64,000 bases of DNA from Bacteroidales bacterium. Lineage in GTDB: Bacteria > Bacteroidota > Bacteroidia > Bacteroidales > UBA7332. The notes under the pieces were generated by a model, which worked only from the letters and a program-made list of their open reading frames with translations, did no database searches and had not been told where the DNA came from. How positions within the stretch are numbered: position 1 is the first letter of the stretch; the number at the start of each line of letters is the position of its first letter. Made by a program: the position numbers and the translations under genes. Positions 7,101 through 64,000 of this stretch are shown in pieces. The stretch spans positions 186,001 to 250,000 of the forward strand of contig JAQTZA010000004.1 of assembly GCA_028687995.1 (NCBI GenBank). The letters run 5' to 3'.

Positions 7101-7414
7101 CTATTCACCGCAATGTGTTTCTCTGTCATTCCAATGTAGGTGACTTTTAGTATGGAATTTTCATAAACATCGGTTAGCTTAAAGTTTCCGTTGAAATCGG
7201 TAGCTGCACCTTTTTGTTCGCCAATGACCCATACCGTGGCACCAATCAGCGTTTCACCTTTAGCATCGGTGACTTGACCTGTGATGGTAATCTTCTTCCG
7301 GGTTTTATTCTGCGCAGTCACTTCGAGCACAGAAGAGCTAAGGATGGAGATACAAAGAATTTGAAGTAGAATTACGTAACGAAATTTACTAATTCGCGAG
7401 ATAATGTGTTTCAT
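4124..7414 (-). CDS. SusC/RagA-family TonB-dependent outer-membrane transporter (PUL 1)
   Basis: A 1096-residue SusC-type importer. After the signal peptide comes a carboxypeptidase-regulatory-like domain (ITITGQVTDAKGETLIGATV, about residues 42-120). Next are a TonB box region (DEVVVIGYG) and the plug domain with the SusC signature EPLYVVDGFPL and NIEILKDASASAIYGARGANG. The long C-terminal beta-barrel ends in an aromatic strand (RSFAFSLTASF). It imports glycan fragments across the outer membrane using TonB energy and works as a complex with the SusD encoded just downstream. A TAnnTTTG site lies about 45 bases upstream. HTCS1 at 9707-13768 is the likely activator, though a defence module separates them. 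Confidence 0.97.
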   Translation of the reverse strand: MKHIISRISKFRYVILLQILCISILSSSVLEVTAQNKTRKKITITGQVTDAKGETLIGATVWVIGEQKGAATDFNGNFKLTDVYENSILKVTYIGMTEKHIAVNSKTNIQIILENDTKLIDEVVVIGYGSLKRSDITGSTAGVNMNKVETQMNGSLEGVLKGRISGVKVSSDNSPGGSISIQIRGSNSMLGGTEPLYVVDGFPLEPIVDAQGNNDAGESQIQSSMSFINPDDIENIEILKDASASAIYGARGANGVVLITTKQGKQSGSKITYNFHNEISTIAKKLPVMNAMQWATNMNQREINRYYLESTAPSTYWSGTIAPIDLPYDGVKAPLPWEMPINTDWQDAIYRTANTTNHSLQIQGSTASTNYSLNLGVRQQQGIILSTDYNRYSINSNIQHSINKKLKITNNLNSSYANSSGATVSNGEVFGNRGLITSALLLQPIFLLDETYQDPNEDDEYASINNNQRINNPYTMATKLLDDKKYYSIIESVGFSYNISKDLILSGKLGVNYNSSERAQYWPRTTTRGKTALGVAAQSSNILFKSLSEVRLNYTHKIGKHQNIDLMVATTYESNDRKEQYNKYENFPSDDLTYYQVQSALSVFPTEMNYLQYKLNSYISRLNYKIRNKYLFTATLRADGSTRFAQNNKWGLFPSAAFAWRVSEEKFLENNNLVNNLKMRISAGRTGSESGIDPYRSLGILGQNQYTFKDVTVPGFIESNIPNPNLSWETTDQYDFGVDATLFNSRLLLTLDLYYKYTSNLLQNVPLPPSFGYGSKIMNLGEIENKGIELDITVPILKMKDISWNVGANIAVNRNKLVKIGGGREYILGPNVGSFRVNRFIEGEPLGVFWGLKTEGVIKTWDEALATTTQPKAVPGEYKFANLYTDDAVQTINDNDMTIIGDPNPDFTFGFNTNFHYKHVDVNMLINGQIGGDIYWNDHMLMIAQNQNYNALTEVLSDSWIAPMQYTFAGPDGKSYTIGSAQGNIANATLPSARTRDGLIAGSSTVYRNSIMNSSGIFDGSFVKLSSISTSYSFNFNKVIKELKMTVSASNLLTLTKYPGYDPESSSFVKSPMRQGIDLGSYPSSRSFAFSLTASF

Positions 7415-31201: not shown

Positions 31202-31237
31202 AGTTAAATTATTAGTATTGACAATAAGTTTCAAAAG

Positions 31238-31245
31238 CAAAATTA
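31238..31245 (-). promoter_or_regulatory. Candidate -7 promoter element of FGE-like/PQQ copy 1
   Basis: Minus-strand TAATTTTG matches TAnnTTTG, about 37 bases before the chosen ATG. It suggests that the gene has its own start in addition to read-through from GH27. Confidence 0.4.
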
Positions 31246-34868: not shown

Positions 34869-36038
34869 CTATTTATTCTTCTTTATGAGTTGAAGAATGG
34901 TATTAACTGATGCTGAAGATCTGAAACCATCTTCCGGCGTATTCAGACAATAATCAACCAGTTTTTCCACAGTTGAAGTCGCCACATGCATTCGTGTATC
35001 AGAAGATGCATAATAGATAAAAACCTCGTCATTTTCGTTGCGAATCCAACCATTCGTAAAGAGCACATTCGATACATCACCCACTCTTTCTTCCCCATGC
35101 GGTGCCATAAAATGACCGCCGGGTCTAGCGATTACACGCCATGGCTCGTGGAGATCTGTCATAAACATGTAGAGAACATAACGTAATCCAGCAGCACAGC
35201 CTCTCACTCCATGAGCTAAATGCAGCCAACCTCTAGACGTTTTGATAGGCGCAGGACCTTGTCCATTTTTCACCTCTTTAATAGTATGATAAATACGCTC
35301 TTCGATGATTAGTTCATCTTTGACTTCGGCTTTCGTAATGTCGTCGACCAACGCCCAGCCCAATCCACCTCCTGATCCAGCATCAATAAATCCATCTTGT
35401 GGTCGGGTATAAAGTGCATATTTCCCATCTACAAATTCGGGATGAAGAACCACATTGCGTTGTTGGCTTTTCGACTTCAAATCGGGAAGTCGTTCCCATG
35501 TGATCAAGTCTTTAGTACGCACAATACCCGCTTTCGCAATTGCTGAAGATAAATCTCCTGCAGGAGCATTCGGATCTTTGCGTTCACTACAAAATATACC
35601 GTAAATCCAACCATCTTCGTGCTTCGTCAAACGCATATCATATACATTTGTTTCTGTTGGTTCTGTATCTGGTAAAACAACCGGATATTCCCAAAAACGC
35701 CACTGATCAATTCCATTCGAGCTTTCGGCAACAGCAAAAAACGATTTACGATCCCACCCCTCTACTCTTACCACGAGTAAATATTTACCATTTAACAGAA
35801 TAGCACCTGAATTTAGCGTGGCATTTATCCCGATTCGTTGCATTAGGTGAGGATTCGATTCGTAGTTAAAGTCATACTTCCACTCTAAAGGAGCATGAGC
35901 TGCTGTTAAAATAGGATATTTGTATTGAGTATAAAATCCAAAATAGGAATCAATCTCTTCATTCTTTCTCTGAATCAGAGATTCGTGAATGGCTTTTAGT
36001 TGTGTAACTTTTAAATCAAATTCAATCTTGCTCATCAT
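34869..36038 (-). CDS. GH130 phosphorylase, 4-O-beta-D-mannosyl-D-glucose phosphorylase-like
   Basis: A 389-residue cytoplasmic protein without a signal peptide, of the length of subfamily-1 GH130 enzymes. Five-bladed-propeller motifs match mannosylglucose phosphorylase: [38 protein letters not shown] with the probable general acid Asp134, and [21 protein letters not shown] with phosphate-site residues. The reaction is beta-mannosyl-glucose plus phosphate giving alpha-mannose-1-phosphate and glucose. The ATG lies within the end of the sulfatase gene (17-base overlap), so the two are translationally coupled. As the only intracellular enzyme of the run, it probably handles the imported disaccharide. 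A second ATG at 36035 is equally possible. Confidence 0.9.
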
Positions 36039-41874: not shown

Positions 41875-42993
41875 CTATTTAATAATCTTTTTGGTTTCAC
41901 CTTTCGCAGATACAAAATATACACCTTTCGATAAATTGCTTAAATCTACCCTGTCAGTTTTACTCACTTTTTTCATCTCTTGACCCACCGAATTGAATAT
42001 CGCAACATCAGCTATTTTTGTAAGTGTAATTTGACTTGGTGTAACTTTTCCAAAAATAGATGATTCTAATTTAGGTGTGTTAATACCATCTTCTTTAGGT
42101 AAACCCATAAAACCCGCATACCAATTGTATGCATAACATTCGTTGGATTTTGAATTCCACCAATATTCAGCTCTCTTCCCTGAATCATCTGTGTCTTCAT
42201 CGTTCACTTTTATATCAAAAGAGATTCCTTTTTCATTATTCAACAATCTCCACGTCGCTAAATCGAATTCAGGTCGTGCGCTACCAGTTAAAGCTGGATA
42301 TCCAATTGTAATGATCCACTTAACAGTATTGGAGCCTACTACAGTTTTATTATCTACAAAAATGTTGTTTGTTAATATATCGTTTGTTCCATTCCAATTC
42401 ACAGCACCGTGTAAACCACCATCTTTGTTAGCGAAATCGATTGTCATCGCATCCACAAAACCTGTTTTCTTTATCGTTGCTTTGTATGCTCCAAAATCTG
42501 TAAATCGACAATACCAGATGTAAGGATACTCTTTTCCATCATTTCCAATTTTATCAAGTGCATTCAATTTAAAGTAGGGTGCCCAGCTCAGCTCTGCCGA
42601 TTCGTTGCCAGTCACATAGTCATCATCGAATTTTAGCAACACATACATATTGTAATTGTCTGCTAAAACTTTGAATGATCCTTTGAAATCTGTTACACCA
42701 TGATCATTTGACGAGCCTGTTATAGGATTTAGATTTGCAATAGGGTATTCAGCTGATTTACTGCTATCCCAGATAGCATCAAAATTGCTTCCCTGCGCAT
42801 CGAACGACGAAACTACTTCTGCATATCCCTGCATATTATCAGAAGGTACGAATGCGGGTAATCGCCCCATCGTAAAGTTGTTATCAATAGGAATCTGCCA
42901 GTATTTCACAAAAAGTGAATCGGTCTCTCCAATAGCAAAAAGATTAGATAAGCATAATGCCATCACTACAATTAGGGAAAATAGTTTTTTCAT
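41875..42993 (-). CDS. Secreted CBM9/DOMON-like glycan-binding protein with T9SS tail
   Basis: A 372-residue exported protein with signal peptide SLIVVMALCLSNLFA. A beta-sandwich of about 250 residues has CBM9-type strands (FDAIWDSSKSAEYPI, FKVLADNYNMYVLLKFDDDY, WIITIGYPALTG, and conserved acidic residues in KVNDEDTDDSGKR). Its Trp-rich end (AEYWWNSKSNECYAYNWY) could stack on sugars. The tail FNSVGQEMKKVSKTD ... GVYFVSAKGETKKIIK is a T9SS sorting domain. It is the last gene of the susC-susD-SGBP operon, so it most likely binds the PUL 2 glycan at the surface. No catalytic residues are seen. Confidence 0.83.
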   Translation of the reverse strand: MKKLFSLIVVMALCLSNLFAIGETDSLFVKYWQIPIDNNFTMGRLPAFVPSDNMQGYAEVVSSFDAQGSNFDAIWDSSKSAEYPIANLNPITGSSNDHGVTDFKGSFKVLADNYNMYVLLKFDDDYVTGNESAELSWAPYFKLNALDKIGNDGKEYPYIWYCRFTDFGAYKATIKKTGFVDAMTIDFANKDGGLHGAVNWNGTNDILTNNIFVDNKTVVGSNTVKWIITIGYPALTGSARPEFDLATWRLLNNEKGISFDIKVNDEDTDDSGKRAEYWWNSKSNECYAYNWYAGFMGLPKEDGINTPKLESSIFGKVTPSQITLTKIADVAIFNSVGQEMKKVSKTDRVDLSNLSKGVYFVSAKGETKKIIK

Positions 42994-44362: not shown

Positions 44363-46024
44363 TTACCAATTGGGATTTTGAACCAAGAAACCTCTGCTAA
44401 TACTTATTTCGCTCTGAGGTATTGGGAAATAACAGTGCTTATTTACATTGAAACGATTATTAAACAGAGTCGCCAAATCAATGTTTAAATTAGAATCAAA
44501 AGACCATCGTACAATATCGTTAAATCGATGACCTTCTGTTGCCAATTCAACATTACGCTCATGGATAATTGCTTGAGAGGTTAAATCTGTAACGACAGGC
44601 ATATCTACACGTGTTCTTACGAGATTGAGTGCAGCCAGCCCTGATCCGTCGGCATCGCGGTCATATTGGTAGCAGGCTTCTGAGTACATCAATAACACGT
44701 CTGCATATCTGATTACGCGAACGTTAAAAGGGGCTGATAAAGTAGTGCCCTTTTCATAAAACTGAGGATAATTGTACTTTTTCAGGCCAATAGCAACGCT
44801 TGGCGAAACACCTGAGTAGAGATTGTATAGTTTTACAGTCGTTTTGGTGTGAGCATTACTCGAAAATGGGATATTGAAACCTGATTCTTTGCGCCAATCG
44901 AGAGTATCTCCATCAAGATAGCAAGTAGCATACGCTCGTGGGTCTCTTGTATATCCACCGGGATGACCAGAGACTGTTTCGAATTCGTACCAAAGGGATG
45001 GATCTATCTCAAAATTACGATAACCGCGAGGCGAGAAGTAAGCATACAAAAGATTACCACCCCATGTTGAGCCTGGATTATAAGCGGTGCTAGTTCTGTC
45101 ATCGTCATTGTATTGAACTTCCCAAACAGACTCTTTATTATTTTCTGCTCTATAAGTCACATTACCGACAGGAATATCGACATAAGAGGAATTTGAAAGT
45201 AATGCTGCTTCGTAATTCTTTTTGTTCTTAATAACTGGTTTAATCAGTTCATAATCGCCACTGTCAATGACTTTTTTTAGAGCTTGTTTAGCCTTCAATA
45301 AATTTGCTTTTGTCTCATCTTGGGGTTTGTTGAAACGCAAATAGTAGTGGTAGTGTTTATAGAGCAGGGCTTTCCCCAATTGTGCGTATGCCGCTCCTTT
45401 GGTGATTCGTCCCAAATCGTTATCTCCCCAACTTGCAGGTAAATGTTCGGCAGCAAAGTTCAAATCACTTTCAATTTTATTCCAAAATTGCTCAGGCGTC
45501 CCGTTCTTAAAAGGTTCGTTAGCGTCTGTCTGAATATTTGTCTCATCGTAGTATGGCGGTTTATTAAACCAAGTGACTAAATAAAAATAATACATTCCTC
45601 TTAAAGCCTTCAGTTGGGCTTGGTATATGTTGAAATTTTCAGTACCAATAGTTGACTCGAGTGGTTTCATTTTGGAAATCACATCAGATGTTCTGAAAAC
45701 ACCAATATACAAGTCGCTCCATGTCGAAATATAACTCTGTAAATCAAAGTCTGTTGCACTATATGCCATCACGTCAAAACCCGTCTCTGGGTTTTCAAAC
45801 CAAATATATGGATCCAATGCATTCAACATTTTAAAATATTGGAGACCAAACATACCGCTATGTGCTAAAGGTGTGTACGCAGCGTTGACAGCTAATTTTA
45901 ATCCAGTTTCGTTTGTCAGTAAGGAAGAAGACTCAAGATTATTCTTATTTTCTGTTTCTAAAAATGAGTCTGAGCAACTTATTGATGTAGAGACTATGAT
46001 TAGATAAATTATCCAGTTTTTCAT
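44363..46024 (-). CDS. SusD/RagB-family outer-membrane lipoprotein (PUL 2)
   Basis: A 553-residue SusD homologue with lipoprotein signal STSISC (Cys17) then SDSFLETENKNNLES. The core is helical with TPR-like segments (QLKALRGMYYFYLVTWFNKPPYYD, first part; GAAYAQLGKALLYKHYHYYL). The conserved C-terminal part is IRYADVLLMYSEACYQYDR ... IHERNVELATEGHRFNDIVRW. It forms the lid of SusC2 and recruits glycan chains. It starts 24 bases after susC2 ends. It differs strongly from the SusD of PUL 1, in line with a different substrate. Confidence 0.96.
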   Translation of the reverse strand: MKNWIIYLIIVSTSISCSDSFLETENKNNLESSSLLTNETGLKLAVNAAYTPLAHSGMFGLQYFKMLNALDPYIWFENPETGFDVMAYSATDFDLQSYISTWSDLYIGVFRTSDVISKMKPLESTIGTENFNIYQAQLKALRGMYYFYLVTWFNKPPYYDETNIQTDANEPFKNGTPEQFWNKIESDLNFAAEHLPASWGDNDLGRITKGAAYAQLGKALLYKHYHYYLRFNKPQDETKANLLKAKQALKKVIDSGDYELIKPVIKNKKNYEAALLSNSSYVDIPVGNVTYRAENNKESVWEVQYNDDDRTSTAYNPGSTWGGNLLYAYFSPRGYRNFEIDPSLWYEFETVSGHPGGYTRDPRAYATCYLDGDTLDWRKESGFNIPFSSNAHTKTTVKLYNLYSGVSPSVAIGLKKYNYPQFYEKGTTLSAPFNVRVIRYADVLLMYSEACYQYDRDADGSGLAALNLVRTRVDMPVVTDLTSQAIIHERNVELATEGHRFNDIVRWSFDSNLNIDLATLFNNRFNVNKHCYFPIPQSEISISRGFLVQNPNW

Positions 46025-46048
46025 ATATGATTTAATTTAAAATTTTAA

Positions 46049-49000
46049 TCAAAAACTTACTTGAAAGCCCACGGTGAAAGAGCGTGGAAGTACATAGCTT
46101 CCTAAATCGATTCCTGACACAAGAGGTTCATCCGATATAAATGACTCAGGATCTCTACCTTTATATTTCGTAAAATTGTAAACGTTCGAAGCATTTATGT
46201 ACGCTCGAAGACTTTTAATTCCAATTTTGGCGGTTGTTTTTGAAGGCAGCGTATAGCCCATTTGAATGTCTTTAATGCGCAAAAATGAACCATCTTCAAT
46301 CCAAAATGATGATATTTGATCATTTTTATTAGTATTAGCGGGATCAGCCCTCACATACTCGGTAGAAGGCCTATCTACTGTCCAATAGTTCAATCCATAA
46401 TCTCGCAGCTTGTTGTGTGCTGCATCTTGCGCATTTAAACTCGACAAACTTGCCCTTTGCGCATTGAATATGTCAAAGCCTGAAATGCCATTAAGGAATA
46501 AGCTAAAATCAAAATTTTTATATGAACAATCAAAACCTAGTGTATAGGTAAAACTAGGAATCGTTTTCCCTAAAATTGTTTTGTCTTTTGAATCAACAAT
46601 TCCGTCAGCATTTAAATCCTCGTATCGAATATCGCCTGGCTGAGGAATCGCCCCTTCTTGATTTCCAAACTTATAACCGATGTAATTTCCTGCAGCATCT
46701 TTCACGAAACTTCCACTTCCATCTTTCGCATAATATTCATCAGTTAATTGAATGATTCCTTGAGCCATGTAGCCATATAATGCTCCGATTGACTGTCCAA
46801 CCGTTGTTCTGTTCGTTTCATTAACATTAAGCGAATTTGATTTACCAATAATATAAGGTACTGGAAGATAAGTCACATCATTCATTATCGTTGTGAAATT
46901 TGAATTTATTCCATAACTAAAATCTTTGTTCACCTGATCTCTCCATTGCAAAGATATTTCAACTCCTTTATTCTGAATTTTCCCTGCATTTACCCAAGGT
47001 TTGCCTGCATTTTTGCCTGTGTTATAGCCAAATGTATACGAAATAGGCATTTGGATTAATAAGTCTCTATTATCTTTTACATAATACTCCACGCTAGTAA
47101 TCAGACGGTTTTTAAACATGTTTAAATCAAATCCAATATTCAACATCTGAGCTGTCTCCCAGTGAATTTCTTTCGAGGGAAACTCCATATATGAGTATTG
47201 CGCATTTGCTATAGTCTGATTAGTGCCAAAGACAGGAGAAAACCAAATAGATTCTGAAATCTTATCTAAGTATTGGAATCCTCCACCAATGTCTGAGTTT
47301 CCGGTTTGTCCCCAACCTACTCTCACTTTCATAATATCAATCTCTTTGATATCTTTGAAAAAATCTTCGTTAATCTTCCATGCCAACGAACCAGAATAGA
47401 AACTACCTCTACGATACTTCGGCGCGAAAATAGAGACACCATCTGATCGATAAGATGCTGTGACAAAATATTTGCTTTTGTAGTCATAGATTACTCTACC
47501 CAAATAAGAAAGCATTTTATAGTCGGAGGTTGTCCCTTTGAGACTTGTAGACGCCGTACCTCCATTTGTCAATGTATTTAACACTTCATAATTAAAGCCA
47601 TTTGCAGCTCCGCTGATTTCATTTGAGCTAGTTGATTTAATACTATGAACAAAAGTAGCTTGAACATTATGAGTCTTGTTAAATATTTTTTTGAATGACA
47701 ATTGATTTTCCACTGTGTAGCCAAAATAATCCGTGTATTTTTCTTTTAACTCTGCATTGCCACTACCTCTATTGTCATCGAAAGCTGGCAACCAGCTTTT
47801 GGTGCGGGAGCTAGCCATGTCGATTGAGGGTGTAAATTTGTATTGCAACCAATTTGTGAAATCAATCTGAGCATAAGCACTTGCTGATGTACCAAATCCA
47901 AATTTCCTATAACTACCCAAAGATGGCGCACAAATTGGATTTGCTTTGTCATTTGATAATGTATTTGTAAATAAGTCAACTTGCCCATCACCATTAACAT
48001 CTGTTCCTTCTAAAGCGTTTCTGGTCGTTTCTCCATTCGCTTTTAAATAGTATCCTTCTTGAAAAGATTCATACCCTCCTTTTAAAAATGGATTATATAC
48101 CTTCATCAGTGGCGATACACTCAAATCATACAAAGAAGATTGGACAGTGAGGGGAAGTTCTTCTATACTTTTATTCAAACTTATGTTTTCTCCAATCTTG
48201 ATGTATTTACTCAAAATAAAATCTGAATTAGCTCGTAATCTAAAACGCTCCATACTATTTTTGATTATCGTACCATCTTCTTTGGTATAGCCACCCGAAA
48301 CGCTAAAATTATTACTTTCACCACCACCTGAAATCGAAAGATTGTAGCTTTGATTAAATCCGTTTTTAAATGCGTAATCTTGCCAGTTCGTACCATGTTC
48401 CCACCCAGTACCATAATAGCTCTGACGGAATTCGGGTGTTAACGCGTATCCGGGATTTACTTTAACTTTATTATCTACTATATCCAAATAAGTTTTGCCT
48501 AATCCGTACGCTTTATATTTAGTGGATGCGAGAAAATTTGAATATTCGTCAGCATTCATCATGTCATACTGCTTGGGTGCTAAATTGAAAGTTCCAAATG
48601 TATTGAAGCTAACTTGCGTTTTACCTGATTTTCCTCTTACAGTAGTGATGATGATAACACCATTAGATCCATCGGCTCCATAGATAGCAGCTGCCGATGC
48701 ATCTTTAAGCACCTGCATACTTTCTATTTCTTGAGGTTGAATTCCATTTATGTTACTAACTTTAATCCCATCAACTATAAAAATAGGATCGGCTCCTTTA
48801 CTGATTGAGCCTACACCACGAACTCTGATGTTTGCATCACCCCCTGGTGCGCCACTTTGCGTCACCAAAACACCAGGAGCCTTACCTTGAAGAGCTTGAG
48901 CTGCGCTTGGCGAGGGATTTTTCGTTAAGTCTTTCACTGTTACTACACTAACAGAGCCAGTTAAGTCTGATTTCTTAACCGTTCCATAACCTATGGCTAC

Positions 49001-49330
49001 AACTTCAGAAAGTTCATTGACAATAGGTTTTAGTGTTACATTGATTGTTGTTCTATCACCTACCGTGACTTCCTGCTTTTGCAATCCAATGTAAGAAAAG
49101 ATCAATACATCTGATGGAGACGCGATGATTGAATATTTACCGTCTATATCAGTTACAGTGCCACTTGTTTTACCTTTAACTAAAATATTGGCTCCAATAA
49201 CCGGAAGATTTTCACCTCCGTCCATCACAGTACCCGATATTTTCTTTTGGGAATAACCCTCCAGATTAAATGAAAAGAAGAGGGAGATTAGAAAAAATAG
49301 CTTTACTAATTTGAAGAATGTGTTATTCAT
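46049..49330 (-). CDS. SusC/RagA-family TonB-dependent outer-membrane transporter (PUL 2)
   Basis: A 1093-residue transporter. The signal is followed by a carboxypeptidase-regulatory-like domain (KISGTVMDGGENLPVIGANI), a TonB box region (SEVVAIGYG), and a plug with SKGADPIFIVDGIKV and SMQVLKDASAAAIYGADGSNG. A 22-strand-type barrel ends LPRSFTVGFQVSF. It imports oligosaccharides together with SusD2. It is divergent from HTCS2 across 283 bases that hold promoter-like sites for both, so HTCS2 almost certainly controls it. It is the first gene of the susC-susD-SGBP-CBM9 operon, which ends at the terminator near 41.8 kb. Confidence 0.97.
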   Translation of the reverse strand: MNNTFFKLVKLFFLISLFFSFNLEGYSQKKISGTVMDGGENLPVIGANILVKGKTSGTVTDIDGKYSIIASPSDVLIFSYIGLQKQEVTVGDRTTINVTLKPIVNELSEVVAIGYGTVKKSDLTGSVSVVTVKDLTKNPSPSAAQALQGKAPGVLVTQSGAPGGDANIRVRGVGSISKGADPIFIVDGIKVSNINGIQPQEIESMQVLKDASAAAIYGADGSNGVIIITTVRGKSGKTQVSFNTFGTFNLAPKQYDMMNADEYSNFLASTKYKAYGLGKTYLDIVDNKVKVNPGYALTPEFRQSYYGTGWEHGTNWQDYAFKNGFNQSYNLSISGGGESNNFSVSGGYTKEDGTIIKNSMERFRLRANSDFILSKYIKIGENISLNKSIEELPLTVQSSLYDLSVSPLMKVYNPFLKGGYESFQEGYYLKANGETTRNALEGTDVNGDGQVDLFTNTLSNDKANPICAPSLGSYRKFGFGTSASAYAQIDFTNWLQYKFTPSIDMASSRTKSWLPAFDDNRGSGNAELKEKYTDYFGYTVENQLSFKKIFNKTHNVQATFVHSIKSTSSNEISGAANGFNYEVLNTLTNGGTASTSLKGTTSDYKMLSYLGRVIYDYKSKYFVTASYRSDGVSIFAPKYRRGSFYSGSLAWKINEDFFKDIKEIDIMKVRVGWGQTGNSDIGGGFQYLDKISESIWFSPVFGTNQTIANAQYSYMEFPSKEIHWETAQMLNIGFDLNMFKNRLITSVEYYVKDNRDLLIQMPISYTFGYNTGKNAGKPWVNAGKIQNKGVEISLQWRDQVNKDFSYGINSNFTTIMNDVTYLPVPYIIGKSNSLNVNETNRTTVGQSIGALYGYMAQGIIQLTDEYYAKDGSGSFVKDAAGNYIGYKFGNQEGAIPQPGDIRYEDLNADGIVDSKDKTILGKTIPSFTYTLGFDCSYKNFDFSLFLNGISGFDIFNAQRASLSSLNAQDAAHNKLRDYGLNYWTVDRPSTEYVRADPANTNKNDQISSFWIEDGSFLRIKDIQMGYTLPSKTTAKIGIKSLRAYINASNVYNFTKYKGRDPESFISDEPLVSGIDLGSYVLPRSFTVGFQVSF

Positions 49331-54153: not shown

Positions 54154-57100
54154 ATGAATAAACACAGAATCACTCTATTCGTATTTGCTCTCAACTGTTT
54201 TTTTTATGTTGGTGCTGTAAATAAAACATACACCTGCCGTGTAGTAGATTTTGGACATGATTTAGGTGATGGAACCTATCGTGATAAAGCGAATTCCCCC
54301 CAAACAACTTACAAAATTGATGTAGATGGCGATGGAAACACAGCTGATGATTGTATCGCATTCTGGGAATTTAGTCTAACTCAGCCAATCAATTCTCAAT
54401 CGTACAAATATCTAAAATCAGCCACCAATTCGAGATTCTTTGGAGGAATAACTGCATTCTATGATGCCACTGGAAAGTTTATTAGCGAAGGAATGCTTAA
54501 TGCAAACCATGAGTTGAGAGATGATAATAACTTTATGGATATTCAAGGTTCTTCCGTCAAACATCGAAACAATGCATTTTGGTTTTGGAAGAAAGAAGAT
54601 TTTCTGAATGGAGGAAATACAAATCCGGTAAGTTTTGATGCAAAAAGTACGATTACTGTTCACATATCGCGGTTTTGGAGCGGAATAGAGGGCGGACGAT
54701 GGGTTGTACAAGAAGGATCTCAATTCTACATCTCCGAAAAGACATTTGGATCGAATGGAACTGCTTCTGGTTTAAGATTATCGCACACGCTCTATCCTAC
54801 AATGACGCGGTGGGCTCTTTATAATCCAGTTGAGCCATGGGATGTTCGTTTCAATGCGACAACCGCTGTATATGAAAATCACAATTTCAATGATGTATCT
54901 TCTGTTGGATTTTATGTTTACCGCGACAATCTTGTTGTAGGTAATACGCAAATAAAATGGCACGCTTTTGAAGTTGTCGCAAATGTCACTCGCGAGGAAA
55001 AACCAAGTTTTAATGCCACAATGACGCAAGTGCCCGCATCGGGAGAAATTTCATCACCATTTTATATTTCAACAAAAGAAGTAGATTATGCACTTTGGCG
55101 TAAGGCATACAATTGGGCTGTAAGTAATCAATATTGTCTATCTTTAGGAATCCCCGGTTATGTTTTCGACCGTGATGGTGATGTTGGGAGCATGGATGTT
55201 GCCAACTTTACACACAATGTTAACGAACCTGTTACTGACATAAGTTGGCATGATGCCGCTTTGTGGTGTAACGCGTTGTCGGAAATGGAAGGGCTAGAAC
55301 CCTGCTATTATTCTGATGCCGCCAAAACAAAAGTGCTAAGAGAAATCAAAAACCGCATAGATTCAACAAAATACGCTCAAAAATATTCAGTCTATGTCGA
55401 TTATACAAAAAATGGTTATCGACTACCGACTATGTCTGAATGGAATGCAGCTTCAACCGGCTCTACTATCAACGAATCGAATGCTTGGATAGGTGCAAAT
55501 TCTGGTGGAACGACAAAAACAACGGCAACAAAAACTGCAAACAATCTGGGAATATATGATATGTTTGGAAACGTTTGGGAATACTGTTGGGATACGAATA
55601 TGGCTGGCGACTATTACAATCCTGCCACTCAAAACTCCCACACTGTTTTAGGAGGTGGCTTCAACTACCCTACTCCAACTACTGTACCAATAAAAAAATG
55701 GGGAGATATACCATCTAAAGGCAATCCTAACATCGGCTTTCGCATTGTAAGAGCAGATGCAGGTGCTACACCACCAACTACACAAAATTCAGGAAGCGTA
55801 CCTACTTGGACAATTGTCGAAGGCGAAAAAATTCTTCCCTCAATTGCTCCTGAGAAAATACAAAGCTTAGTGCAAACCGCTAAAATTTCAGGAAGCAAAA
55901 CCTACAAAACATCAGGGGATCCTCTTTATGAAAATGACAATGTAGGCTTCACTCGTACAGATGATGCAGTAATCACCATTACTCCATTCCACATGGCTAA
56001 ATATGAAACATCATACGCAATGTGGCGTGAGATTTACAACTGGGCAGAGATAAACGGATACACCTTTGACGATGACGCAGCCATGGGAGCCCAAAACTAC
56101 CGTGTGGGTGAACTTACGCATCAAGCAAATGAGCCTGCTACTGAGACAAATTGGAATGACATTATGCTATGGTGTAACGCATTATCGGAATATGAAGGTA
56201 AAACACCCGTCTATTTTGCAGACGATGCAAAAACCATTGTCATAAAAAAAGGACTCCAGTGGCGGATTGATATGGAACAACGCTACGTGGATTATCCCAC
56301 ATACACAAATAATGCGATTAAAGCGCGTTTCGAAAATGACGGATATCGTTTGCCTACTTACGCTGAGTGGGAAGCTGCTTATCGCGCTGGAAATGAAACG
56401 AAAAATCTGTCGTTTCCATCCAGCATCGGCACTAGTTGGATTAACACGAACTCAAACGACTCAATCCACAGCGTATATGCGCCTGGAGATCAGCCAAACA
56501 GTTATGGAATTTATCACTTATATGGTAATATTTCTGAATATACCATGGGCGCGCGTTTACTAGATTATTACAGATACCACAATCCAAAAGACGATTCGGA
56601 TGAATTTATGTTTGGAATAGATACACGTGGCGGTTGTTTTGTGTCGGAAGCCAGAAAAGCTGCCGAAAGTGAAAGCGAATCGTACAAGAATAGAGCATCT
56701 GCGCCAAGACATTTTATTGGGTTCAGGGTTGTACGTTGCGACGCTGGAAGACACAATGGATATGAACCGCCGATTGACATTAAAGTCCCTGTTGACATAT
56801 CGAAATACAACGATAATTCGGGTCAAACATTCCATAACAACAACAAAAGAACGGGTGAATTCTTGAAAACAGGTGTACCATCGCCAAAAATACAGACCAA
56901 ATGGACTTATACTACTGGAGGAAAGGTACAATCTTCGCCTGTCGTTATTAACGACACTTTATATGTTGGTTCTGATGATGCCAAAGTCTATGCGATCAAT
57001 GCAAAGACAGGAGCCTTAATCTGGTCATACACCACAGGGGGAGCGATTGAAACCTCTTCGCCTACAATCTACCAAGGAAAGCTCTTCATCGGGAGCAAAG

Positions 57101-58173
57101 ACACCTATTTGTATTGTCTAAATGCAAAAACAGGTACATTAATCTGGAAAAAGAAAGGATATACCACTGCCTATGTGAAGTCATCCCCAATGGTTGCTTA
57201 CAATACTGTTTTTGCGACTTTCCATGGAGAATTCAATGCAACGAGCACTATAGGATACGACATCAATACGGGAGCCGAAGTGTGGCGTTATCGCGATTCT
57301 CGATGCAATGAAGGGTCAATATCATCAGATGAGACAACCATGTTTTTCCCTACCAAAGATAATGTATGTGCTGGAACAGATATAGCAACTGAGATAAAGA
57401 AGTGGGAATATATTGGAGTACATAGCGCTGCATCAATGCCAATAGTTAATGGAAATTCGGTTTTGTATGTTGCAGAACATTTTGCCCGTTTGCAGAATAA
57501 GACTACAGGATTACCTATTTGGACACGAACTGTCGGTCAAAATACAGATGGAAAACCTTGGTCAACACCTGCAATTGGAACAGTTAATAACTCTGGAACA
57601 ACCAGTCAGTCTATATTCTGGAGCACACTGAAACTAAAGGCTGGTAAAGCATTACTCATGTCTTTGAATCCAGCCGATGGAAGTATAAATTGGCAGAAAG
57701 AGTATGATTTATCATTCAAATCTTCGCCGGCTCTAGCGAATAATATGATTTATGTTGGAAATGACGATTCATATTTGTATGCCGTGAATGCAGTCAATGG
57801 AGATCTAATTTGGTCATTTAAAACAGGAGATATCGTTATGTCATCTCCTTGGATTGAAAATAATGTAGTCTATGTTGGTAGTAACGATGCTAATGTCTAT
57901 GCTGTTGAAGAAGATACTACTACAGCAATTATGGATCCTACAACCAAGCGATTTGTCGTGTATCCGAGCCCTACGTCCAATTATTTGACCATAAATTGTG
58001 ATTATAAAATTCACAAAGTAAGAATCACTAATTTATTGGGCCAAAGCTACAATTTCGGCATTGATTATGAGTTAAACAAGGTGGATGTCAGCTCCTTACC
58101 AAGTGGTGTGTACAGTATCGAGGTGTTCTCCAACACTCAACTTATCGGAAAAAGCTCCTTTATTAGAAAATAG
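54154..58173 (+). CDS. Secreted protein: two FGE-like domains, PQQ propeller and T9SS tail (copy 2)
   Basis: A 1339-residue paralogue of the product of 27167-31201, with the same order. Signal (LFVFALNCFFYVGA); N-domain beginning CRVVDFGHDLGDG with DVDGDGNTADD; FGE-like domain 1 at about 289-534 (NGYRLPTMSEW, GNVWEYCWDTN); FGE-like domain 2 at about 605-864 (DGYRLPTYAEW, RGGCFVSEARK); PQQ propeller at about 889-1254 (SSPVVINDTLYVGSDDAKVYAI and further blades); T9SS tail from FVVYPSPTSNYLTI. A Cys follows RGG in domain 2, but the two-cysteine pattern of true formylglycine-generating enzymes is missing. It starts 157 bases after HTCS2 and ends with a strong terminator. A role in glycan binding or as an exported scaffold is inference. 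Confidence 0.85.
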   Translation: MNKHRITLFVFALNCFFYVGAVNKTYTCRVVDFGHDLGDGTYRDKANSPQTTYKIDVDGDGNTADDCIAFWEFSLTQPINSQSYKYLKSATNSRFFGGITAFYDATGKFISEGMLNANHELRDDNNFMDIQGSSVKHRNNAFWFWKKEDFLNGGNTNPVSFDAKSTITVHISRFWSGIEGGRWVVQEGSQFYISEKTFGSNGTASGLRLSHTLYPTMTRWALYNPVEPWDVRFNATTAVYENHNFNDVSSVGFYVYRDNLVVGNTQIKWHAFEVVANVTREEKPSFNATMTQVPASGEISSPFYISTKEVDYALWRKAYNWAVSNQYCLSLGIPGYVFDRDGDVGSMDVANFTHNVNEPVTDISWHDAALWCNALSEMEGLEPCYYSDAAKTKVLREIKNRIDSTKYAQKYSVYVDYTKNGYRLPTMSEWNAASTGSTINESNAWIGANSGGTTKTTATKTANNLGIYDMFGNVWEYCWDTNMAGDYYNPATQNSHTVLGGGFNYPTPTTVPIKKWGDIPSKGNPNIGFRIVRADAGATPPTTQNSGSVPTWTIVEGEKILPSIAPEKIQSLVQTAKISGSKTYKTSGDPLYENDNVGFTRTDDAVITITPFHMAKYETSYAMWREIYNWAEINGYTFDDDAAMGAQNYRVGELTHQANEPATETNWNDIMLWCNALSEYEGKTPVYFADDAKTIVIKKGLQWRIDMEQRYVDYPTYTNNAIKARFENDGYRLPTYAEWEAAYRAGNETKNLSFPSSIGTSWINTNSNDSIHSVYAPGDQPNSYGIYHLYGNISEYTMGARLLDYYRYHNPKDDSDEFMFGIDTRGGCFVSEARKAAESESESYKNRASAPRHFIGFRVVRCDAGRHNGYEPPIDIKVPVDISKYNDNSGQTFHNNNKRTGEFLKTGVPSPKIQTKWTYTTGGKVQSSPVVINDTLYVGSDDAKVYAINAKTGALIWSYTTGGAIETSSPTIYQGKLFIGSKDTYLYCLNAKTGTLIWKKKGYTTAYVKSSPMVAYNTVFATFHGEFNATSTIGYDINTGAEVWRYRDSRCNEGSISSDETTMFFPTKDNVCAGTDIATEIKKWEYIGVHSAASMPIVNGNSVLYVAEHFARLQNKTTGLPIWTRTVGQNTDGKPWSTPAIGTVNNSGTTSQSIFWSTLKLKAGKALLMSLNPADGSINWQKEYDLSFKSSPALANNMIYVGNDDSYLYAVNAVNGDLIWSFKTGDIVMSSPWIENNVVYVGSNDANVYAVEEDTTTAIMDPTTKRFVVYPSPTSNYLTINCDYKIHKVRITNLLGQSYNFGIDYELNKVDVSSLPSGVYSIEVFSNTQLIGKSSFIRK

Positions 58174-58368: not shown

Positions 58369-60768
58369 ATGGTGTTCGATAGTTATTTTCTGAGAAGATT
58401 GGTCGTATTATTTTTCTCTTCTAGCTTTGCTTGGTTATATACATTCAGTGAAGCCAAAAAACCATTTGTTTCTGACCCATCTCAACTTAACGATAATTCA
58501 TTTGCTGAATGGATAAAACCATCAAGCAATGCTAATGAAGGCGTTTATTACTTTCGAAAAGATATCGCATTAAGTGAGAAGCCAAAGGATTTTATAATTT
58601 ATATTTCAGCAGATAATAAATACAAATTGTACGTCAACGATAGCTTAATTGGGCGAGGACCTTCTATTGGCGATCTACACGCATGGAATTATGACACCTA
58701 CAATTTGGGGGCATTTCTCCACAAAGGAGAAAATATTGTCGCAGTGCAAGTTGTAAATATGGGTAGAATGAAACCAGCTAATCAGATATCACACACTTCA
58801 GCACTAATCATTCAGGGAAATTCGTCGTTAGAACAGATTCTCAATACTGATAAATCGTGGTTAACCGCTAAAGATTCTGGCTACTATTTTATGAAAATGA
58901 AATCTGAACTCGTGGGCGGTGGATATATTGCCGGGGGTACAGATAGTCTAGTTTTAAGCAAAAATTATCAGAATTGGACAAGCTGTCAATACAATGACTC
59001 AACGTGGGAACATCCAATTGAGTTAGGCAAAGGAAACCACTTTGGACTGAATACATGGGTTGGAACACCATGGTTTCTTAAAGAGAACAAATTGCCGATT
59101 TTACGACCGGAGAAACAACGATTTGCACAATTGCTATCAGCAAATGGTGCTCACATTGAATTTGATAATAATTCAGGAAAGATTCAAGCGTTGATTCCAG
59201 CAAATTCACATGTTGAGTTTCTGATTGATAATCGAGTTCTAACGATTGGGTATCCTCAATTACTTGTTTCAGGAGGAAGAAACAGCAAGATTAAGATTCA
59301 GTATCAAGAGGCTATGTTTGATAATTCTGGGCATAAAGTGAATCGTAATCAATGGAAAGACATGGTTATGAAAGGATATTATGATGTAATCATAACAGAT
59401 GGGACAGATTTTATTTTTGAACCAGTTTCCTTAAGAACATTCAGATTCATAAAAGTGAGTATCGATACCAAAAATGAGGAACTACGAATAAATGATTTCT
59501 ACAATAATTTCACAGCTTATCCTTTTCAACTGACAGCAAAATTCACGACAGATAATCAATTGTTGACTGATATATGGAATACATCTTGGCATACATCTCA
59601 CTTATGTGCGTCAGACACATATATGGATTGTCCATACTACGAACGGTTACAATATATTGGCGATACCCGTTTGCAAGCATTAACCTCGTTGTATGTAACG
59701 AATGATGATAAACTCGTCAGGAACGCTATCGAACAATTCTATAATTCGATGCAACCGATGGGTTTAACAAGGAGCAGTTATCCTTGTGGTGGCGTTCAGA
59801 TAATTCCACCATTCTCGCTAATTTATATTAATATGATTCATGATTATTATACATTAAGAGACGATTCTGCTTTTGTGAAACAGTTTATTCTAGGAATGAA
59901 ATTTATACTTGAATGGTTTATCAATAAAATTGACAAATCGGGTATGCTCGGTCCATTGCCTTACTGGAATTTCACAGATGGAGTTGCACAATTCAGGAAT
60001 GGATCTACCCCAGGTATAAGCGAAGGAAACTCCGCACTTATATCAATTTTACTAGCTCACACGATTGATAATGCAGCCGATATTTTCGAGCATTACGGAT
60101 TGACTTGCGATGTTGTACGCTACAAAGCTCTCTCAGACTCATTGAAAGCAAGTACTTTTAGACTTTGCTATGACAGTCAGAAGCAATTATTGGCAGAAAC
60201 TCCATCGAAAGAAATGTTTACGCAACACACAAATAGCTTGGCAATCCTATCCAATATGTTTGACCAAAATATGACTCATAAAGTTGCAAGAAAAATTATT
60301 GCTGATACAAGTCTGGTTCAAGCAAGCTTATACTTTGATTTTTATGTTTTTCAAGCATTGAAAAAAGCGAATTTAGGTGCCGAGGTAATACATTTAATGA
60401 ACAAGTGGAAGGTCTTTCTAGATAATGGCTTTACAACGTTCCCTGAGCATGGTATAGAAAGCCGTTCTGATTGCCACGCGTGGGCGGCTCATCCAATGTA
60501 CGATTTTCTTAATATTACATGCGGAATTTCATCACTATCAGCAGGATTTAAAACAGTCGAGATACGACCTCAACCCGGTGATTTGGACAGTTTTGATGCT
60601 ATCTTTCCGCATCCGAAAGGCGAGATTAAAGTTTCGATGAAAAGGCAAATACAAAAAATCATATTTGAAGTTGATTTTCCTAAAGAAATCAATGGATATT
60701 TTATTCACAAAAATGAAAAAATGACTTTGAACTATGGTCGAAATCACTACGAATTCAGCACACATTGA
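58369..60768 (+). CDS. GH78-type alpha-L-rhamnosidase, CPYYE subgroup
   Basis: A 799-residue exported enzyme. The hydrophobic N-terminus is LVVLFFSSSFAWLYTFSEA. A GH2-like beta-sandwich (YYFRKDIALSEKPKDFIIYI) is followed by the barrel with SDTYMDCPYYERLQYIGDTR, the subgroup form of the GH78 active-site segment. GIESRSDCHAWAAHPMYDF lies near the barrel end and the C-terminal strand is HPKGEIKVSMK. It is closely similar in layout to the enzyme at 39231-41567 and much less so to the one at 13902-16037. It should release terminal alpha-linked rhamnose or a related sugar. Its last 35 bases overlap the next gene, indicating coupled translation. Confidence 0.87.
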   Translation: MVFDSYFLRRLVVLFFSSSFAWLYTFSEAKKPFVSDPSQLNDNSFAEWIKPSSNANEGVYYFRKDIALSEKPKDFIIYISADNKYKLYVNDSLIGRGPSIGDLHAWNYDTYNLGAFLHKGENIVAVQVVNMGRMKPANQISHTSALIIQGNSSLEQILNTDKSWLTAKDSGYYFMKMKSELVGGGYIAGGTDSLVLSKNYQNWTSCQYNDSTWEHPIELGKGNHFGLNTWVGTPWFLKENKLPILRPEKQRFAQLLSANGAHIEFDNNSGKIQALIPANSHVEFLIDNRVLTIGYPQLLVSGGRNSKIKIQYQEAMFDNSGHKVNRNQWKDMVMKGYYDVIITDGTDFIFEPVSLRTFRFIKVSIDTKNEELRINDFYNNFTAYPFQLTAKFTTDNQLLTDIWNTSWHTSHLCASDTYMDCPYYERLQYIGDTRLQALTSLYVTNDDKLVRNAIEQFYNSMQPMGLTRSSYPCGGVQIIPPFSLIYINMIHDYYTLRDDSAFVKQFILGMKFILEWFINKIDKSGMLGPLPYWNFTDGVAQFRNGSTPGISEGNSALISILLAHTIDNAADIFEHYGLTCDVVRYKALSDSLKASTFRLCYDSQKQLLAETPSKEMFTQHTNSLAILSNMFDQNMTHKVARKIIADTSLVQASLYFDFYVFQALKKANLGAEVIHLMNKWKVFLDNGFTTFPEHGIESRSDCHAWAAHPMYDFLNITCGISSLSAGFKTVEIRPQPGDLDSFDAIFPHPKGEIKVSMKRQIQKIIFEVDFPKEINGYFIHKNEKMTLNYGRNHYEFSTH

Positions 60769-62596
60769 AAAAAACTTCAAATTCACCAAAATAAATACAG
60801 GAATAAGATTATTATTGATTTGCATCAGTGTGCTTTTCAGTATTTCGATTACAAAAGCACAATATGTAGTCAAATCTCCAAATATCTTAAATCCGGATTT
60901 AAACATTGAATACGTCAAGAAGAACATGGCGTTTTGGGCGAGAAACTCGTACGATCCGCTTTACGGAGGTTTCTTCTCAAGTGTTGGGCAAACTGGGAAT
61001 CTATTAAATACAGATCAAAAATCGTTGATTGTGCAAACACGACATGGTTATGGCTTCACAAGAGCTTTTATGTTAACTGGAGATGAAATTTATCTCGATT
61101 ATGCCAAAAGTGCCTTGGATTTCCTGTTTAAATATGGATGGGATAGCACCAATGGAGGATGGTATTGCTTCGCAAATCGAGATGGGTCGATTGATAATGA
61201 CAGGGCTTGGAATCCAAATACAAAAAAATGGGGATTTCAACAACAGTATGCGCTGTTGGGTATTGTGGCAAATTACGAAGCAACAAGAAATTCGGAAGTA
61301 AAAAAGTGGATGGACAAAGGAGTTAATTCACTGTACACCAATATGTGGGATACCCGTTCTGGATTTGAAGGATATTATGAAGATGCGTCATTAACATGGG
61401 GTAGTAAGACAGGGAAAGGATTTGCATGTACTGTTGATGCCATCTCTACAAATACTGAGACTTGCTTTTTGGTAACTCGTGAAGAAAAATTTCAAACCAG
61501 ACTGACTCAACTTGCAGATATTATCATCAATAGGTTTATTCCGGAGATGAGTAATCCTTTATGCAAGGTCACCTACCCTAGTATTTTTAGCTCTGATTGG
61601 ATTCCTGATTATTCGACAAAAAATTCGACATCCAGTGTTGGTCATTTCCTTAAAACAGCTTGGTGTCTGGGGCGAGTTTATTTGTGTAATACTTCAAAAA
61701 CAGAATACCGAGATGCTGCCATCAAAATATTGGATCAAACCTGGAGCTATCAGAAAGGAGCATATTCATTATGGGATCATCGCAATGGAGGTCCTTTCTT
61801 TTCGGTCAATATTTTGACGGGCGAAGGAACCAAGGATTACAACAACAAAGATTATTGGATGTTGGAACAAGGATTTACAGGGCCTATGCTTAACTACCAC
61901 ATCACCAAAAATCCAATTTACCTGCAAATGGCTGACGAGAGCTTAGGTTTCTTCATGACACATCAGGTAGATTCGGTTTATGGGGAAATATTTAGCCAAG
62001 TGGATTCTACTGGAACATTAATTAAGAATGGAGTAAAAGGAGACGATTTTAAGGCCAGTTATCACTCTACCGAGATGGGATATTTTGCTTATTTATATAG
62101 CAATTTATTCTACTTAAAACAACCTGTCAACCTCTACTACAAATTTGAGCCAACCGACTCAATTCAGCATATTCGGCTTTCGCCACTTTCAGTCGAAGAC
62201 GAATATCTAAAGATTAAATATGTGACATTGGATGGTATACAATACACCCAATTTGATTCAGATTCACGCGTAATAACTGTTGAACCTAATCAAAGTGGAA
62301 AATTCAAAGTTACATTTGAGCTAAACGATGCTTCTGCAAATGCCATTCAATCCCTTCAAAAAGAGAAAATCAAGGTCTATCCAAATCCGACAAAAGGCGA
62401 TTTAACCATCACAGGTTTGATGAATTGCAAAGCTATTACCATTATTGATGTTAACTCAAAAGTACTATTTGAACAAACGATTAATAATCAAGAATCCATT
62501 CAATTAGATCTACAAAATCAAAAACCGGGAGTCTTATTTTTATCAATCACTGATGGCTTCGGACACAAAATCGTTAAAAAAATCATTAAACTATAA
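60734..62596 (+). CDS. Secreted AGE-family (N-acylglucosamine/cellobiose 2-epimerase-like) protein with T9SS tail
   Basis: A 620-residue protein. A 43-residue N-terminus includes a signal (LLLICISVLFSISITKAQ). Residues about 55-465 form an (alpha/alpha)6 barrel of the AGE family, with QTRHGYGFTRAFMLTGD (Arg103 in the place of the conserved active-site Arg), SVGHFLKTAW (His304) and ASYHSTEMGYF (His444). Cellobiose epimerases have a third His in an HLHxxEA motif; here the matching stretch is STNTETCFLVT without His. A short beta-domain and a T9SS tail from about 547 (IKVYPNPTKGDLTI) follow. It may isomerise, bind or hydrolyse a sugar outside the cell. The gene overlaps the GH78 stop by 35 bases and precedes the CE7-like gene by 12. 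Confidence 0.8.
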   Translation: MVEITTNSAHIEKNFKFTKINTGIRLLLICISVLFSISITKAQYVVKSPNILNPDLNIEYVKKNMAFWARNSYDPLYGGFFSSVGQTGNLLNTDQKSLIVQTRHGYGFTRAFMLTGDEIYLDYAKSALDFLFKYGWDSTNGGWYCFANRDGSIDNDRAWNPNTKKWGFQQQYALLGIVANYEATRNSEVKKWMDKGVNSLYTNMWDTRSGFEGYYEDASLTWGSKTGKGFACTVDAISTNTETCFLVTREEKFQTRLTQLADIIINRFIPEMSNPLCKVTYPSIFSSDWIPDYSTKNSTSSVGHFLKTAWCLGRVYLCNTSKTEYRDAAIKILDQTWSYQKGAYSLWDHRNGGPFFSVNILTGEGTKDYNNKDYWMLEQGFTGPMLNYHITKNPIYLQMADESLGFFMTHQVDSVYGEIFSQVDSTGTLIKNGVKGDDFKASYHSTEMGYFAYLYSNLFYLKQPVNLYYKFEPTDSIQHIRLSPLSVEDEYLKIKYVTLDGIQYTQFDSDSRVITVEPNQSGKFKVTFELNDASANAIQSLQKEKIKVYPNPTKGDLTITGLMNCKAITIIDVNSKVLFEQTINNQESIQLDLQNQKPGVLFLSITDGFGHKIVKKIIKL

Positions 62597-62608
62597 AACA
62601 ATACAATC

Positions 62609-64000
62609 ATGAAACGTACAGTACTCATGTTATCTCTCTTTATTGCTATTGCAGCACAATCACAAGATTTACTTGATAATAGTTGGCAAATTGCTCTTGG
62701 AGACAGCTCAATTTGGAAAGACCCATCATACAACTCGTCTCATTGGAAGAACATCAAATCGGGAGCAGTATGGGAAGAACAGGGATTCAAAAACTACGAT
62801 GGGTTTGCATGGTATCGAAAGAAAGTGTATATCCCCGTAGAGCTTAAAACCGAAGCACTCGAAAAGGGAGGTCTAGAGCTAAGCCTTGGTACTGTAAACG
62901 ATGTTGATCAAACCTATTTTAACGGAAAAATGGTTAGTACAACAGGAAAATTTCCACCAGCCTACGACACTGCCTACGACAAAGAAAGATCCTGCACAAT
63001 AGAAGTTGGTGATATCCTTTGGGGAAAAGAGAATGTAATTGCTGTCAGAGTTTACGACGGCGCAGGTGGCGGTGGAATCACGGGTCAAGATGTGGTTTTA
63101 AAGGTTAGAGGCGCACCTTCTTTTTTCAAAATTGAACCTAAATTCCCAAACCCAAATCAAATTATTGACAACGGAGCTAAAACATCTTTTGCCCTGTCAT
63201 TCAACAACTCTTCAAATATTGATATCAAAGGAACGGTTGGTTTGTTGCTAGTAAATGATTTCAAAGATACAATTTCATTTTGGAGTACTTCGATGAACAT
63301 ACCAGCGTTAACTAATAAACTTTTCCCAATTAATAAATTGAAATTGCCGCCAGGATTTTATTCATTATTGATTGATTTTAAGAGTAAGTTGAGCAATGTT
63401 TCAAAATCGTTCAATTTTGGAGTGGAACCCGAAAAAATTGTCTCGCAAACAACTATTCCTGCTGACTTTGACGACTTTTGGATGAGGGCTAAACGTGAGC
63501 TGGCATCCGTTGATCCGCAATACAAATTGACTTTAATCGATTCGCTTTCTTCCACGAAACGTAATGTCTATTCATTAGAGATGCGATCGCTATACAACGT
63601 ACTGATACGAGGATACTATATTCGTCCGAAAGCAGAAGGAAAATTTCCAGCAATTCTCCATCTTCAAGGCTACAGCACCGATCCTAAGATTGGATGGGGA
63701 TATCCGGGTGATGATATGGCAGTGCTAATACTGAACGTACGAGGACACGGAAATAGCCGCGACGACATCAATCCCGGATTCCCTGGATTCTTAATGTACA
63801 ACTTAAAAGACAAAGAGAGATACATCTATCGTGGCGCCTATATGGATTGCGTTCGAGCGGTTGATTTCCTGTGCAGCAGAGAAGAAGTTGACTCAAGGTA
63901 TTTGGTGGTGGAAGGAGCAAGCCAAGGTGGAGCCATGAGTATCGCCACAGCCGCACTTGCCAACGACAGAGTGAAACTTTGCATTCCTGCAGTTCCATTT
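62609..64000 (+). CDS. CE7-like acetyl esterase with N-terminal sugar-binding domain (cut by window end)
   Basis: The first 464 codons of an exported esterase; the 3' end is beyond the window. After the signal (VLMLSLFIAIAAQSQ), residues about 20-170 form a GH2-type jelly-roll (WQIALGDSSIWKDPSYNSS, WYRKKVYIP, LSLGTVNDVDQTYFNG). A linker beta-domain leads to a CE7/acetyl-xylan-esterase-like alpha/beta-hydrolase from about residue 285. It contains IPADFDDFWMRAKREL, LNVRGHGNSRDD and the nucleophile elbow with Ser438 in GASQGGAMS. It would remove acetyl groups from imported or surface oligosaccharides. It begins 12 bases after the AGE gene, so the GH78, AGE and CE7-like genes form one plus-strand operon of PUL 2. 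Confidence 0.88.
   Translation, partial: MKRTVLMLSLFIAIAAQSQDLLDNSWQIALGDSSIWKDPSYNSSHWKNIKSGAVWEEQGFKNYDGFAWYRKKVYIPVELKTEALEKGGLELSLGTVNDVDQTYFNGKMVSTTGKFPPAYDTAYDKERSCTIEVGDILWGKENVIAVRVYDGAGGGGITGQDVVLKVRGAPSFFKIEPKFPNPNQIIDNGAKTSFALSFNNSSNIDIKGTVGLLLVNDFKDTISFWSTSMNIPALTNKLFPINKLKLPPGFYSLLIDFKSKLSNVSKSFNFGVEPEKIVSQTTIPADFDDFWMRAKRELASVDPQYKLTLIDSLSSTKRNVYSLEMRSLYNVLIRGYYIRPKAEGKFPAILHLQGYSTDPKIGWGYPGDDMAVLILNVRGHGNSRDDINPGFPGFLMYNLKDKERYIYRGAYMDCVRAVDFLCSREEVDSRYLVVEGASQGGAMSIATAALANDRVKLCIPAVPF

Follow-up and report, generated by a model that had tools for sequence, protein, structure and literature searches.

What could an epimerase fold be doing outside the cell once one of its catalytic histidines has been exchanged? 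The question is raised by an open reading frame (ORF) at 60734–62596 on the forward strand of a 64,000-nucleotide stretch of DNA (the window) from a Bacteroidales bacterium (positions 186,001 to 250,000 of contig JAQTZA010000004.1, assembly GCA_028687995.1), whose 620-residue product (the target) matches both PF07221, the profile of the N-acylglucosamine 2-epimerase (AGE) fold, and Por_Secre_tail, a sorting domain of the type IX secretion system (T9SS). Our answer is a tentative one, held with a little less than even confidence: the target is a cell-surface enzyme of the AGE superfamily, of the epimerase or isomerase type, that acts on the reducing-end sugar of extracellular oligosaccharides. 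As judged from the alignment, what is distinctive about it is a family-wide exchange of three active-site residues, His to Asp, Glu to Lys, and Arg to Glu, each present in all 62 of the core relatives aligned.

Fold, export signals and active site

The AlphaFold model of target residues 43–549 (predicted local distance difference test score 96.6, predicted template-modelling score 0.94) is matched best, in VIA comparison with solved structures, by the D-mannose isomerase 5x32 (Z 46.6, root-mean-square deviation 2.3, 379 residues aligned) and equally by the cellobiose 2-epimerase 5zig (Z 46.6, deviation 2.1, 383 residues). AGE-superfamily structures occupy Z 38.9–46.6 and the rows that follow, 7tem and the glycoside hydrolase (GH) family GH76 protein 6u4z, stand at about 30, with glycosidases of the GH76, GH88, and GH105 type in a second tier at Z 25–30. 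The target matches PF07221 at 63.7 bits (cut-off 23.4, E 2.4e-17), all 62 core rows do so at E <= 0.001, and profile-profile comparison of the 62 with 16 canonical AGE and cellobiose 2-epimerase proteins gives a probability of 100 (E 4e-43), so the AGE fold proposed in the initial annotation stands. PDB sequence matches of the family are canonical AGE, cellobiose 2-epimerase, and isomerase proteins and, more weakly, other alpha/alpha-barrel enzymes. No NCBIfam equivalog fits the target, which scores 43.9 bits against the cellobiose 2-epimerase model NF041848 (cut-off 800) and 44.5 bits against the N-acylglucosamine 2-epimerase model NF052547 (cut-off 600). Membership of the D-glucuronyl C5-epimerases (PF06662) was considered and rejected, the target scoring 22.8 bits against a cut-off of 23.3; 46 of the 62 core rows match this profile at E <= 0.001, some above the cut-off (L041, 25.7), and we read the partial match as reflecting common barrel repeats.

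The alpha/alpha barrel (residues 43–461; 60860–62116) is preceded by a signal-peptide-like N-terminus, recognized by eye (residues 1–42; 60734–60859), in which a hydrophobic stretch ends in SITKA directly before QYVV. It is followed by a beta-domain (approximately residues 462–531; 62117–62326) and a T9SS type A sorting domain (residues 548–618; 62375–62587) that exceeds the cut-offs of both PF18962 (40.1 against 27 bits) and TIGR04183 (34.2 against 23), in agreement with the export signals first described for this protein. The beta-domain had been regarded as an addition; it is present, but it is shared with the relatives and not peculiar to the target, and comparison with solved structures found nothing diagnostic (best Foldseek E 0.12; best VIA Z 5.2, to a phage portal-complex chain).

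With residue numbers of the cellobiose 2-epimerase RmCE counted on the 3wkf line of the alignment, the target retains Arg103 (61040–61042; RmCE Arg66; Arg in 60 of the 62 core rows), His304 (61643–61645; RmCE His259), and His444 (62063–62065; RmCE His390), both histidines being invariant in the core, which bears out the earlier observation that two of three histidines and the Arg are kept. Three other positions are exchanged in every core row: Asp235 (61436–61438) stands at the place of the third His (RmCE His200), Lys307 (61652–61654) at the Glu of the canonical GHxxE motif (RmCE Glu262), and Glu447 (62072–62074) at the Arg of YHxxR (RmCE Arg393), the last also in 29 of the 29 outer rows used for counting. 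The helix that should carry HLHxxEA contains no His, as had been reported, and Asp235 stands in that stretch. Its equivalence follows from an ungapped run of seven residues from a conserved basic residue, which is Lys in all 62 core rows and Lys (15) or Arg (1) in the 16 canonical rows. We consider it probable, on strong grounds of sequence, that Asp235 occupies the third-His position; one HMMER alignment to 5zig places this helix differently. A third His elsewhere in the pocket was considered and, as far as the sequence shows, rejected for the target: 49 of the 62 core rows have His at position 240, five residues after Asp235, where the target has Asn.

The missing His on its own says little, because N-acylglucosamine 2-epimerase-type proteins also lack it: of the 16 canonical rows, 11 have it and five do not (L015, L016, L023, L026, L033), and of these five L033 is closest to the solved N-acetylglucosamine 2-epimerases (E 8e-151 to 6f04). 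The initial annotation was right about the absence, but this is not a lone loss, since Asp is found there throughout the core and goes together with Lys307 and Glu447. Of 84 rows, 70 have both Asp235 and Lys307 and the remaining 14 have neither, and chance loss of a single residue is rejected because the two come and go together, although the co-occurrence largely follows the tree and does not represent independent events. The outer rows of the D-H-K type fall in two places in the tree, 13 beside the core and two with other outer groups, and on this tree the Asp/Lys pair may have arisen once or more than once.

The known enzymes of this fold differ from the target in different ways. Cellobiose 2-epimerases (RmCE 3wkf, CsCE 4z4l, and 5zig; structural-alignment identity 16–23%) share the barrel (Z about 46), the His pair, the Arg, and RmCE Trp322 (Trp375 is invariant in the 62 core rows), whereas the target has the secretion signal, T9SS tail, and beta-domain in addition and replaces the third His with Asp, GHxxE with GHxxK, YHxxR with YHxxE, and Glu326 with Gln; RmCE Trp385 is Phe in the target and variable across the family. 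N-acylglucosamine 2-epimerase, a cytosolic enzyme, is alike in fold and AGE-like rows also lack the third-place His, but unlike the target it has Glu in GHxxE and Arg in FHxxR. D-mannose isomerase (5x32) and the sulfoquinovose isomerase YihS (Z 38.9–40.0) also resemble the target in fold, and both have the His pair. According to PMC5726027, YihS has the third His as well.

Whereas the predicted fold, the retained His pair, the exchanged residues, the secretion signals, and the gene neighbours are observed, the chemistry, its substrate, and what Asp235, Lys307, and Glu447 do in it are inferred. The T9SS would export the target, so that it acts outside the cell, and the retained His304/His444 pair with Arg103 would transfer protons through an enediol at the reducing-end sugar; PMC5726027 describes two histidines as the essential acid/base pair of cellobiose epimerases, with the third His acting at O2. 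Asp235 and Lys307 would then stand in for the His and Glu that act at O2/C2 in the cellobiose epimerases. In the branch to which the window belongs, the enzyme would most likely help to supply a mannosyl-glucose (Man-Glc)-type disaccharide to the mannosylglucose phosphorylase (MGP) of the same gene sets, which is the job of the canonical cellobiose (mannobiose) 2-epimerase in relatives.

The phosphorylase link and what weighs against it

The main reason for preferring an epimerase-type role is that the slot beside MGP is exchanged with the canonical epimerase. In the close branch of 12 loci, to which the window belongs, the gene immediately upstream, in the same orientation, encodes MGP in six (L040, L041, L042, L043, L047, and L067, the last a 254-residue fragment) and adjoins none of the other six (the window, L009, L044, L045, L046, and L100); L043, L044, L047, and L100 were assigned to this branch by identity (58–65%) and not by the tree. 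The MGP of L040 matches 3was at E 3.8e-185. MGP was found in 10 of the 10 genomes searched because they carry the close branch, against 17 of 99 in the order of the window, and among the 17 MGP-bearing genomes of that order (the window's own counted) eight have a canonical cellobiose epimerase-type protein encoded on the strand of MGP and no more than 1.7 kb from it, the same slot beside the GH130_1 enzyme that the close branch fills. The wider branch has an adjoining MGP in seven of 15 loci; these include L048, from another phylum, in which a 132-residue ORF intervenes and the MGP (58% identical) matches 3was at E 1.5e-162, whereas L055 and L083 have none. PMC6385246 reports that in B. fragilis and B. 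ovatus mannobiose is processed by an epimerase acting with GH130_1, and PMC9860051 notes an epimerase in mannan polysaccharide utilization loci; a text search of PMC5831590 found no mention of one. PMC3585893 counts PF07221 as a feature of plant-biomass degraders but gives it the label GH88, and we gave it no weight.

The window's genome (99.99% complete) contains MGP, and a PF07221 search found no canonical cellobiose 2-epimerase there, its only two PF07221 proteins both being of the secreted branch type. The same genome lends itself to a different explanation, in which the target belongs to a new family of glycoside hydrolases or lyases built on the AGE fold, with Asp235 and Glu447 as base and acid, and cuts an extracellular polysaccharide; the window's branch would then free Man-Glc directly for MGP, and the link would be explained without epimerisation. 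A genome that has MGP yet neither a GH26 mannanase nor a canonical epimerase fits this, as do the two invariant carboxylates, the sorting tails (Por_Secre_tail in 56 of 62 core proteins), the second-tier likeness to glycosidases, and fusions of the kind seen in depolymerases: carbohydrate-binding modules (CBM), with CBM4_9 in two of the 62 core proteins and CBM9 and CBM64 in one each, and malectin and dockerin, likewise in one each (dockerin in L066), these domain counts being among 25 of 33 families listed. However, CBMs occur in few members, the His pair and Arg of the epimerases are kept, and no hydrolase of this superfamily is known to us, and on these grounds we think a hydrolase rather unlikely. 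We nonetheless keep it close, because no GH26 mannanase was found, the sugar site has changed, and 15 of the 22 core-bearing genomes of the phylum sample are without MGP. As to the suggestion that the target is an extracellular hydrolase or isomerase of a new kind, gene context leans towards an epimerase- or isomerase-type role and the CBM and dockerin fusions lend a hydrolase some plausibility.

Returning to the epimerase-type enzyme that we favor, several observations count against it. The window's own MGP (34869–36038, reverse strand; E 5.6e-196 to 3was) lies 25 kb from the target and on the opposite strand, and the source of mannobiose is not obvious because no GH26 mannanase was found in the window's genome and GH5 gave two matches. 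A secreted epimerase feeding a phosphorylase without an evident signal peptide is unusual, and a canonical-length PF07221 protein is also present in five of the ten branch genomes (G494 adds two weak matches). Outside the close branch the link to MGP is weak: in the phylum sample MGP occurs in seven of 22 core-bearing genomes and in 50 of the 373 without a core member (Fisher p 0.027, with no correction for kinship), and no carbohydrate-active enzyme family recurs among 114 neighbours of the other core loci, among 25 of 169 families listed. Within the same list, nothing apart from T9SS tails (nine) is found in more than three of the 114 neighbours of those 36 loci; 13 of 127 neighbours were left out, nine because of their length and four because they belong to L085, which nearly duplicates L061. 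In the active site, the three exchanged positions all lie in the canonical sugar site, and PMC6333288 places the Glu that corresponds to Lys307 at 4.4 A from C2 of the substrate; at positions 231 and 283 the target carries Ala and Ser in place of the Asn or Thr and the Glu usual in relatives. Moreover, PMC6333288 reports a proposal that the AGE pair is not two histidines but an Arg and an acidic residue at RmCE position 326, and this place is Gln379 in 60 of the 62 core rows.

The family, the paralogue and the surrounding genes

A scan of the genome collection with the target alone as query found nothing, and an alignment query found at least 80 loci. The family is patchy, with a core member in 22 of 395 genomes of the phylum sample (E < 1e-45) and two of 393 in the window's order (E <= 1e-60). 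Near-identical repeats of one locus and fragments shorter than 440 residues (L047, L073, L086, L087, L100, L101, L108) were left out of the counts, and the partial L138 is among the 63 core rows but not in the 62-row alignment. A named phylum is available for 44 of the 63, nine phyla in all (Bacteroidota, Ignavibacteriota, Myxococcota, Calditrichota, Fidelibacterota, Chlorobiota, Fibrobacterota, Gemmatimonadota, and Rhodothermota), and the other 19 comprise two from the window's own genome, 15 from more genomes of its phylum, and two of untold phylum. In a quick tree the core forms one branch (32 of 32 sampled rows), the canonical rows a separate one (16 of 16), and the core with its outer YHxxE relatives one branch of 61 rows, each with SH-aLRT support of 100. 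Besides the proteins with Por_Secre_tail, four of the 62 core proteins match CHU_C, among 25 of 33 families listed. Because many relatives are draft metagenome genomes, gene absences are soft, except in the near-complete genome of the window. The branch is apparently uncharacterised: no characterised member was found among PDB sequence matches, NCBIfam equivalogs, or the open-access papers listed, none of which describes a secreted AGE-fold family.

The second copy in the window's genome (L009, on contig C15; 603 residues) is 57% identical to the target and retains Glu283, which is found in 61 of the 62 core rows and is replaced by Ser283 (61580–61582) in the target alone. Ala231 is likewise unique to the target, 57 of the 62 rows having Asn or Thr. 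Because the target lacks this Glu, the paralogue is possibly the more active, and if either copy is less active it is likely to be the target. A stronger version is that the barrel, at least in the target, binds carbohydrate without catalysis or has decayed, with the C15 paralogue staying active; the two unique residues, the Glu kept in the paralogue, and a related outer group of six rows without His304 are in keeping with this, but the remaining invariant residues are intact, as is the ORF within a tight gene run, and the model is of high confidence, so that we judge such a loss of function improbable. L009 has neighbours unlike those of the window, namely GH92, GH97, GH43-like, and fucose- and arabinose-isomerase-like genes, and also has nearby a symporter gene that falls in one BLAST cluster with the symporter of L040.

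The outer relatives share YHxxE and the beta-domain region with the core, but their inspected C-termini look unlike T9SS tails. Long relatives of the D-H-K type have one BLAST-cluster gene on the contig in eight of nine loci (L104, L107, L112, L114, L115, L116, L118, and L119, not L117), isoamylase/GlgX-like in the four scanned; in the L107 protein the C-terminus matches STAS weakly, below cut-off, and a GMC oxidoreductase gene lies near this locus. The A-H-E and G-A-T groups are shorter proteins without the Asp/Lys pair. The G-A-T group (L012, L036, L099, L103, L111, and L113) has Gly, Ala, and Thr at the sites of Asp235, His304, and Lys307, and thus lacks one catalytic His yet keeps YHxxE. 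A-H-E relatives (L092, L093, L096, L097, and L098) lie near keto-sugar-type genes: four Cyclobacterium loci have in common a 3-keto-disaccharide hydrolase domain, scanned in L097, and a PQQ/cytochrome dehydrogenase, scanned in L096, and L098 has a Gfo/Idh/MocA oxidoreductase nearby.

The GH78–AGE–CE7 gene run described for the window is present. A GH78-like alpha-L-rhamnosidase gene (58369–60768, forward strand, by profile match) overlaps the first 35 bp of the target ORF with its 3' end, and 12 bp separate the target stop from a CE7 (AXE1) esterase gene (62609–64000, forward strand) that continues past the window end, where it is followed by another CE7-like gene, which shares its BLAST cluster, and by a 259-residue ORF that has no annotation. 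Also beyond the window end, at L008 5392–6336 and 8745–10445, a full-length GH94-like gene comes after two short ORFs of the GH94 cluster, and a GH97-like gene is divided between two ORFs where the contig ends. The window's MGP has around it genes for two sulfatases and a SASA-type esterase, together with another GH78-like gene and a GH27-like gene, and the genes at 44363–49330 cluster with genes that we take, by their motifs, to be SusD/SusC pairs. Large T9SS-tailed proteins with a formylglycine-generating-enzyme-like domain and a PQQ-type propeller are encoded at 54154–58173 and 27167–31240, and T9SS-tailed proteins with CBM9_1 over cut-off at 41875–42993 in the window and at 7242–8372 in L040, the latter having a BLAST cluster mate in L041.

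Implications for the superfamily

A broader possibility is that this secreted, multi-phylum branch applies a chemistry of Asp235, Lys307, and Glu447 that is new to the superfamily to extracellular polysaccharide, either by hydrolysis, for example freeing Man-Glc, or by 2-epimerisation of polymer reducing ends; we consider this conceivable but on the whole doubtful, and if true it would define a new carbohydrate-active enzyme family. More generally, a branch of a well-studied epimerase fold combines export signals with an active site rebuilt around the old catalytic histidines. If the target is an epimerase, as we tentatively favor, oligosaccharides would be remodelled at the cell surface before import, and some MGP gene sets without a known epimerase would be explained; if it is a hydrolase, it would represent a carbohydrate-active family not described before. 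In both cases, the Asp/Lys/Glu set offers a precise mutational test of the role of the third His in cellobiose epimerases.

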